The position numbers were made by a program, and so were the translations under genes. DNA of 64,000 nucleotides from Isoetes taiwanensis (Eukaryota > Streptophyta > Lycopodiopsida > Isoetales > Isoetaceae): positions 17,590,386 to 17,654,385 of the forward strand of contig JAJEKV010000003.1 of NCBI GenBank assembly GCA_021234155.1. The letters are read 5' to 3'. The notes beneath the pieces were generated by a model. It was not told where the DNA came from and made no database searches. It worked only from the letters and a program-made list of their open reading frames with translations. Of this stretch, positions 39,289 through 40,579 are shown in pieces. Positions within the stretch are counted from its first letter, which is position 1; the number at the start of each line of letters is the position of its first letter.

Positions 39289-40579
39289 CTAAAGATGATC
39301 TCCCGGGATTCTCCGGGCAAGAGCTAAGTCCTCGGTCATAATCGTGACCCTCTTTGCAGTGGATAGCGCAAAGGTGGTCGGTCTTGAACTCTTGGGCTAT
39401 CTCTCTGACCAACCTCTGGAAAGGCAGCTTCCTCAAGAACAACTTCGTGGTCTTCTGATATTTACGGATCTACCGTAAGGCCACGATGCCTGGTTTGAAA
39501 CGATGGGGCTTTCTTGAGGTAGCCACTTTCGGGGTTGGGGCAGGCTTCTTGGGCAGAGTCTTGCCGGCAGAAACTGGATGTGGTCGTGCAGCATCCACCT
39601 GTTCTTGCCAGCGGCTTGAGCTCGTGTGTTTCCCTATGCTCCCAACAACCTTGAGCTTTTCTTTATATTGGCTGCCGGACTTATGAGCAGTGGACTTCCG
39701 CCGTCTCTTAATGGGCGGCTTGTCCGCTTGGTCGGGCTCACGCAGGGTTTCCTGCCCGGTGTTGGCCTGTTGCTGCTGCTGCTGTTGCTGCTGGTGGTGG
39801 TCCGGGTTTCGTTGTTGCTCTCACTGTTCTTTCTGTTGTTGCTCTTGCTGGGTTCTCTCCGCCTGTTCTCGAGCCTCACGAGCTGCTGCCATGTCTGCCT
39901 CTACCTGAACAAGGCGTCAGGCCGCAACCCGTCGGAGCAGTTCCATGCGGTGGCGGTCCGGCTGGGCTCGCATATCCAACTGGACCGTTATCAAGTAATC
40001 CAGACTGACATGAGCTGGGATTTCACCCCACATGAAGCTCTGGGTAGCCTCATCGTACTCATATGGGGGAAGCTCAAAGGGCTCACAATTGATGATGGCT
40101 CTCCCATCACCTAGGTAGACGTACTCATGGCCTCTAGCCGCGGTGTCTCCCCTCTCTATCTCCCGGATGTCGTCTTCCCGAGCCAGTCCCCTAATGCGGG
40201 CTGCCTCTCTTCGGATAGCCTCCTCTTCAGGGACCTCTTCACACTCAGGCGGGTAGAACTTGACTAGCATCATTACCTGGTCAGGTTGCTCGACCATGGT
40301 ATATGCCTGCCATTGGAGGTTAAGCTTGATCAAGAAATGCTCAGAGAGATGGAAAATGGGATAGGGTATCCTAATGCCATTACTAAAACATTGCACCAAC
40401 TCATTTAGAAGAAGCTCGACCATATTAGGGTCGGTAGCCAGGTGCTCCCCAAGCAAGGCACATAGATCTGGGGCACCGTGAAGCTGGCAGGGCTCAAAGT
40501 GCCTTTGGTACGGGCCATCGACATAGGCGTTGAACGAAAGGAAGGTGGGAAGTGAAGCACTAAGGGTTGGAGATGGCAA
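39289..40579 (-). pseudogene. ORF-A: novel N-terminal domain, polyQ linker and histone H3-like C-terminus
   Basis: One reading frame, interrupted by TGA (39917-39919), TGA (39821-39823) and TAG (39470-39472), runs from the ATG at 40579. Residues 1-220 are an unrecognised globular-looking domain. Next come a coiled-coil/charged part, a glutamine run (about 39764-39800) and a basic patch (IKRRRKS), which could act as a nuclear signal. The C-terminus is histone H3-like: KPHRFKPGIVALR, IRKYQKTT, then LRKLPFQRLVREIAQEFKTD. It jumps directly to HLCAIH, so about 26 residues of helix 2 are missing. A one-base frame change then leads to KRVTIM and LARRIPGD before a stop at 39289-39291. All stops could be C-to-T changes. 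H3-type domains pair with H4 in nucleosomes; a role for this one is unknown. Confidence 0.7.

Follow-up and report, generated by a model that had tools for sequence, protein, structure and literature searches.

Plant chromoviruses carry gag, protease, reverse transcriptase, RNase H, and integrase in that order, with a chromodomain ending the integrase (PMC3350952; this and the other papers cited here are drawn upon from the accessible part of each). The element described here, which lies on the minus strand of a 64,000-nucleotide stretch of the Isoetes taiwanensis genome (contig JAJEKV010000003.1, positions 17,590,386 to 17,654,385; hereafter, the window), has the same order and the same integrase chromodomain. 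Unlike the plant chromoviruses, however, this long terminal repeat (LTR) element has two extra open reading frames (ORFs) before gag, one of which, in the family to which it belongs, ends in a full histone H3; the term "additional ORF" occurs 0 times in the accessible part of the chromovirus paper (PMC3350952). Captured host domains in plant LTR elements are known but rare (PMC9289625). The orchid Gypsy elements with an AlkB N6-methyladenosine-demethylase ORF resemble the present family in that a host-type domain forms an additional ORF and was kept through subfamily diversification, although there the domain is an enzyme and the elements are giant, whereas here a core histone is fused to a new domain (PMC9289625).

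Histone sequences have been found in other mobile and viral genomes. Fungal hAT elements, like the present family, have multiplied an H3 sequence, but they are DNA transposons, and their H3 copies are inactivated by repeat-induced point mutation in P. fijiensis and recent in P. tritici-repentis, where 12 are identical; unlike the case here, no conserved H3 fusion protein is described in the accessible part of that report (PMC6710886). Among viruses, histones include the bracovirus H4, which enters host nucleosomes, single viral H3s, and the nudivirus Orf1 with its C-terminal H4-H3 doublet, and, as in the present family, a viral element thus encodes a histone, sometimes with a long extra N-terminal part (PMC9145170). 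Their carriers, unlike this retroelement, are large DNA viruses or polydnaviriforms, and the terms retrotransposon, retrovirus, and RNA virus have 0 occurrences in the accessible part of that review (PMC9145170). Our literature searches turned up no report of a histone-encoding LTR element. Captured ORFs and viral histones are therefore already known, while a histone in a retroelement is apparently the first known case.

The genome searched was the window's own assembly (1,658,258,908 bases in 1110 contigs), and the queries were the H3 DNA, canonical H3, gag, and P0003, a 373-residue protein encoded on a 2953-bp public contig that shows the same layout of MARTK start, N-terminal domain, and full H3; the figures given cover the best-scoring candidates among larger candidate sets. 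The H3 DNA gave 78 matches (best 40 of 885 candidates scored), with both H3 blocks in most copies at 79-95% identity per block (self excluded) and extra sequence at the site of a deletion in the window copy. P0003 gave at least 216 matches (best 110 of 9724 candidates scored), and many of those listed cover the N-terminal domain plus H3, mostly stop-free over the matched stretch. Canonical plant H3 (best 150 of 9022 candidates) matched 15 loci over the full length at 96-98%, which on this identity we take as host genes, and 135 at 71-86%; every one of the subset of these diverged loci that was fetched is the present element.

Twenty copies (L009-L028) were fetched from among the best matches to the intact protein. 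The primer-binding site (PBS) is exact in 16 of them and present within two edits in the other four, inside the 1.2 kb before the ORF, and the fusion was matched by tblastn with P0003 in all 20 (as a single match in 19, in two pieces in L012). In 14, the 8-kb stretch also includes gag in the same orientation. The ORF is open from the initial MA to the H3 C terminus in 14 of 20 and open with another start in two more; L010, L012, L020, and L023 have no full-length open frame. Where open, it comprises an H3-like start (mostly MARTK, MAITK, MANTK, or MAHTK, with a few copies diverging further), a domain of ~200 residues, a basic linker, and the full H3 core from K37 to the C terminus. A 3′ LTR was located in five of the eight copies inspected (clipped by the end of the stretch in L027), with LTR-LTR identities of 92.0-96.6% and Kimura two-parameter distances of 0.020-0.041; none was seen within the stretch read in L016, L020, or L025. 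Target duplications of the five two-LTR copies are exact 5-bp repeats in three, agree at 4 of 5 bases in one, and are offset by one base in one. Copies with both LTRs thus display the TG...CA ends and 5-bp target duplication that define LTR retrotransposons and are ordinary LTR insertions with an H3 inside. For the copies read, this is a multicopy chromodomain Ty3/gypsy family with a chimeric histone as the first ORF after the PBS.

A preliminary description of the window, made from its sequence, had proposed that a retroelement captured an H3; the complete H3 at the same post-PBS place in other copies bears this out. It had also raised the alternative of a separate processed H3 pseudogene beside the element, which is ruled out, because all 20 fetched copies show the fusion, 14 to 16 of them with H3 and the upstream domain in one open frame. 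Its further question, whether H3 is always present and complete in other copies, has a mixed answer: it is complete in most of those read, but a sample of 20 places anchored on gag showed it in no more than 11. These 20 places represent about every seventh entry among the best 150 of 13073 candidates, with a few swaps against duplicates. Ten have H3 within the first stretch (in L032, its last 42 residues only), and the 11th, L046, has it nearer to gag. Eleven is a lower bound, because coverage reaches through the final 1.5 kb ahead of gag in just two places, L037 and L046, and stops short of it in eight of the remaining nine. Among those nine, one stretch starts inside the second extra ORF (ORF2), so that H3 is out of view; one has ORF2 without H3 in 6.6 kb; one has only a piece of ORF2 beside foreign sequence; and six have neither H3 nor ORF2 by tblastn. 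ORF2, whole or in part, occurs in 13 of the 20 places, and H3 is present in 10 of these 13. This 11th copy (L046/L049) represents a variant with a full H3 (PF00125, E=4.9e-42) and a Q-rich linker, whose interval from PBS to gag yielded neither an N-terminal domain nor ORF2; its LTR shares 85-88% identity with the LTRs of other copies. The variant shows that H3 can persist longer than the remaining extra modules.

The element H3s probably derive from one capture, as suggested by a tree of 33 element H3s, P0003, and 50 host-type H3s, in which all 34 element-type sequences fall in one clade (support 0.978) with no host-type member inside. The source was probably an H3.3-type gene: one genomic copy has an H3.3 chain as its best match in the Protein Data Bank (PDB), and 31 of 32 copies have leucine at position 90, which we take to be the plant H3.3 state. 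We infer that the new domain was inserted after a MARTK start, from which MAITK, MANTK, MAHTK, and further variants later arose. The N-terminal domains of the window and P0003 are related, with a Smith-Waterman score of 220 compared with 31+-5 for shuffles (maximum 69 of 2000). P0003 appears to resemble one subfamily more closely than the rest, because its closest match listed in the assembly has 64% identity over residues 129-371, compared with 46-47% for three full-length matches. Searches of viral contigs found no relatives. The P0003 N-terminal part as query recovered P0003 alone, and the window N-terminal part recovered nothing at E<=1, P0003 included, probably because candidates in this search must share exact 5-residue words. 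The N-terminal domain gave no Pfam or PDB match worth naming (epsin, E=0.37, is noise). As a separate observation, P0086 from the pseudoscorpion Cordylochernes scorpioides is a predicted 577-residue protein in which a full H3 accompanies Retrotrans_gag and a zinc-knuckle-like stretch; either the gene model is an artefact or gag and H3 became associated independently.

Substitution patterns point to a constrained protein. Ratios of nonsynonymous to synonymous substitution (dN/dS) were obtained by the Nei-Gojobori method as medians per dS class; L002, L004, L005, and L006, which lie on the opposite strand of their loci, contributed no codons here and were read in a separate comparison. The ratio is 0.049-0.123 across dS classes for H3 and, for the N-terminal domain, 0 in the single closest pair and otherwise 0.081-0.126, with 0.094-0.408 for ORF2 and 0.127-0.511 for gag. 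A sample not chosen by H3 gave 0.085 for H3 (15 of 45 pairs usable), 0.160 for the N-terminal domain (8 of 28), and 0.137 for ORF2 (19 of 66). These ratios indicate that purifying selection preserved the fusion ORF as the family diversified into divergent subfamilies. Pairwise distances of the N-terminal domain and H3 are correlated (r=0.937, n=31), as are those of H3 and ORF2 (r=0.787, n=30), with 0 of 5000 permutations as high in either case.

The retained histone part looks intact. Four genomic H3 ORFs scanned contain a complete H3 fold (PF00125, E 4.9e-42 to 3.5e-41), as does P0003, and the canonical residue is the commonest at 86 of 99 core positions (31-34 copies). R63, R69, R72, R83, C110, H113, K115, T118, K122, D123, L126, and R129 are retained in 85-100% of 33-34 copies; of these, we take R63, R69, R72, R83, K115, and T118 to be DNA contact positions and C110, H113, D123, L126, and R129 to belong to the H3-H3′ bundle. 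Changes are found at 54, 77, 86-90 (SSAVA to TFAIL), 102, 105, 107, and 124-125, as well as at the two C-terminal residues, and residues 87-90 are presumably the site where H3 chaperones distinguish H3.1 from H3.3. The element H3 thus resembles plant H3.3 in leucine 90 and in the H3.3 chain as best PDB match of one copy, yet it differs in its replaced tail and in its commonest states F87, A102, G/S105, A107, L124, A125, and P135. The canonical modifiable N-terminal tail is absent: the first few residues are H3-like, and the remainder is replaced by the N-terminal domain and linker.

The window copy itself is a dead member of the family. Its H3 motifs, KPHRFKPG..VALR, IRKYQKTT, LRKLPFQRLVREIAQEFKTD, HLCAIH, KRVTIM, and LARRI, stand in H3 order at the end of a long minus-strand frame, where the preliminary description had placed them. 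That description had also put the H3 in one long frame behind an unrelated domain and a poly-Q linker. Both upstream parts were confirmed, and a single frame runs from 40621 to 39290, but it is interrupted by three in-frame stops and includes neither the start nor the end of the ORF: the MARTK at 40518 is in a different frame from the remainder, and the final ~20 H3 codons, in another frame, have a 75% match to P0003 residues 352-371. In the close copy L007, MAHTK and the N-terminal domain share one frame. The piece after the last stop (39289-39466) alone matches the Pfam Histone family PF00125 (E=8.9e-6), while the piece before it (39470-39820) matched no Pfam family and PDB H3 chains weakly (E 0.17). 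The stretch between KTD and LCAIH is absent, leaving the window H3 26 residues short of a complete fold. The loss of about this many helix-2 residues had been noted before; three genomic copies have 78 extra bases at the gap, which is 26 codons in frame. The loss is private to the window copy, because six of the seven closest copies retain the helix-2 stretch (one with an in-frame stop inside), and the seventh has a shorter gap.

The placement of the ORF between PBS and gag on the same strand likewise held, with the refinement that ORF2 intervenes. The PBS, TGGTATCAGAGC, read from 41166 to 41155, is an exact match, with 0.30 matches expected by chance in the whole window at <=1 mismatch, and we take it to be of the initiator tRNA-Met type. 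This PBS type and TG...CA LTR ends are typical of plant chromoviruses. The limits of the window 5′ LTR are borrowed from genomic copies (TGTGACG...CGTCACA ends, set by homology limits); the 5′ LTR alone was located, and self-comparison found no 3′ LTR within the window. With PBS, gag, protease, reverse transcriptase, RNase H, and integrase in order on one strand and a chromodomain at the integrase C terminus, the window copy is by its domain content a decayed minus-strand Ty3/gypsy element, called chromovirus-type because its integrase carries the chromodomain. Its gag-pol is also split over several frames, so that decay affects the polyprotein as well as the H3 ORF. ORF2 had no Pfam match in the window and genomic copies scanned, and direct comparison showed no relationship between it and the N-terminal domain.

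Table 1. Parts of the histone-bearing element in the window, listed from its 5′ LTR to the end of integrase
Feature	Position	Strand	Evidence
5′ LTR, TGTGACGTTC...GAGCGTCATA, 1528 bp	41168..42695	(-)	Ends match LTR ends of genomic copies
PBS, TGGTATCAGAGC	41155..41166	(-)	Exact match
H3-fusion ORF, decayed (3 in-frame stops, 2 frame shifts, one 26-codon deletion)	39289..40518	(-)	
N-terminal domain, ~200 residues	39917..40490	(-)	Smith-Waterman score 220 vs. P0003
Basic linker with poly-Q stretch (poly-Q ~39765-39800)	39512..39916	(-)	
Histone H3 core, K37 to C terminus, helix-2 stretch deleted near 39377	39289..39511	(-)	PF00125
ORF2, second conserved extra ORF, broken in window	37785..39052	(-)	Matched in 19/20 fetched copies
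gag (Ty3_capsid, Retrotrans_gag)	36618..37373	(-)	PF19259 E=8.6e-16, PF03732 E=6.1e-15
Aspartic protease	35745..36617	(-)	PF08284 E=8.9e-13
Reverse transcriptase, in pieces	34947..35744	(-)	PF00078 E=1.9e-7 and 1.1e-13
RNase H and integrase, in pieces	33185..35073	(-)	PF17919, PF17917, PF17921, PF00665, PF24626
Integrase chromodomain	33019..33261	(-)	PF00385 E=7.1e-8

Between the H3 ORF and ORF2, an AT-rich stretch (39100-39290, minus strand) contains a TGACGTCA palindrome and a TATA-like run and is a possible candidate for an internal promoter. Elsewhere in the window, 5816-8300 on the minus strand holds another LTR, diverged and belonging to a related element (alignment score 746, compared with 344-388 for five shuffles). 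It has its own PBS-like TGGTATCGAGC near 6.0 kb, and the sequence from this LTR downstream to the window end showed no H3. Two direct copies of 6.6 kb with 88.7% identity occupy 16717-29589, and by the look of their ORFs we presume them to encode a Helitron-like helicase/Rep. Several ORFs at 47254-52425 (minus strand) resemble host-gene exons; one of three scanned gave a weak importin-11-like match (E=0.069).

How might such a protein serve the element? The explanation toward which we lean is that of a conserved H3 chimera family whose histone would dimerize with the H4 of the host and travel with it to chromatin. Pairing with H4 through the intact histone fold, followed by association with chromatin in or on nucleosomes, is itself likely, judging from the residues retained, and the chromatin targeting or nucleosome mimicry suggested in the preliminary description would be in keeping with them. 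The chaperone route would probably be other than that of standard H3, because residues 86-90 are changed, and the N-terminal domain would be placed where the silencing-relevant H3 tail would otherwise be. If the protein does reach chromatin in this way, anti-silencing, in which chromatin on new or existing copies is kept from normal tail marks, is an appreciable possibility short of an even chance, and tethering or targeting, in which element particles or DNA are anchored to chromatin, is a slightly lesser one. The full form of the anti-silencing idea, that an element-encoded H3.3-like histone with a replaced tail is built into element chromatin and shields it from silencing or redirects silencing, is tentative and on present evidence rather doubtful. 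The chromodomain on the integrase invites the idea of a link to H3 tails, but the cage residues are missing from plant group II chromodomains, whose partner is given as unknown (PMC3350952).

Several observations weigh against these ideas. H3 was seen in 11 of 20 gag-anchored places and is therefore possibly not required for every copy's spread; it may be dispensable for some. The choice of L009-L028 by match to the intact protein is biased toward open frames. The start motif is variable, reading MAIIK in L030 and MPRFK in L011. Distances of H3 and gag are modestly correlated (r=0.430, n=15, 144 of 5000 permutations as high), and the 5′ module may therefore move between gag-pol backbones and have been exchanged among them. 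The linker of some copies contains ARKS or ARKT, resembling the K9 context, which may be chance or a relic but could be methylated, weakening the notion of an unmarkable tail. The AlphaFold model of the P0003 fusion, made from an alignment of four rows, is poor (predicted local distance difference test score, pLDDT, 41.5).

Other explanations accommodate parts of the same evidence. In the one that survives best, the H3 part would be a docking surface only, for H4, chaperones, or chromatin, and, together with the integrase chromodomain, would bring Gag or the integration complex to chromatin. The chromodomain in the same element, the intact H4 and H3-H3′ interface residues, and the basic linker all suit such a role, but the H3 ORF is separate from Gag and integrase and no physical link is known; we regard it as unlikely, if a serious contender. 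The protein could instead act as a decoy that titrates histone chaperones or H4 and so disturbs silencing without entering nucleosomes. Changes centred on 86-90 and 102-107 with retention of the H4 and H3-H3′ contacts would fit, yet the DNA-contact residues inspected are likewise kept in 85-100% of copies, which a decoy would not need; we consider the idea quite improbable. We give little credence to passenger capture, in which a histone gene was swept in and multiplied as a functionless hitchhiker, as H3 was in fungal hAT elements. That transduplication is a precedent (PMC6710886), several copies here are broken, and no H3 was seen in 9 of 20 gag-anchored places, an upper bound because the interval is partly unread; however, H3 dN/dS is low (0.05-0.12) over all dS classes and remains so in the sample not chosen by H3, long open ORFs persist in diverged subfamilies, and H3 is retained in L046, where other modules were not found. 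Finally, a host H3-variant gene family merely adjoining the element, or recently acquired by it, is barely credible: the short contig of P0003 leaves its wider context out of view, but a PBS, exact or within two edits, precedes the ORF in all 20 fetched copies, ORF2 follows in 19, and in the copies tested the ORF sits between LTRs bounded by target duplications.

Plant transposon silencing works largely via marks on the H3 tail. If the explanation toward which we lean is true, an H3 with a replaced tail would be a direct molecular answer of the element to host silencing, and a natural H3 variant would be evolving beyond host control. The family also serves as a warning to annotators, since diverged H3-like loci outnumber canonical H3 genes 135 to 15 among the best 150 of 9022 candidates. 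It reveals which H3 residues are kept by selection once the tail is removed, and it renders testable the idea that a selfish element can use a histone to counter silencing or for targeting.
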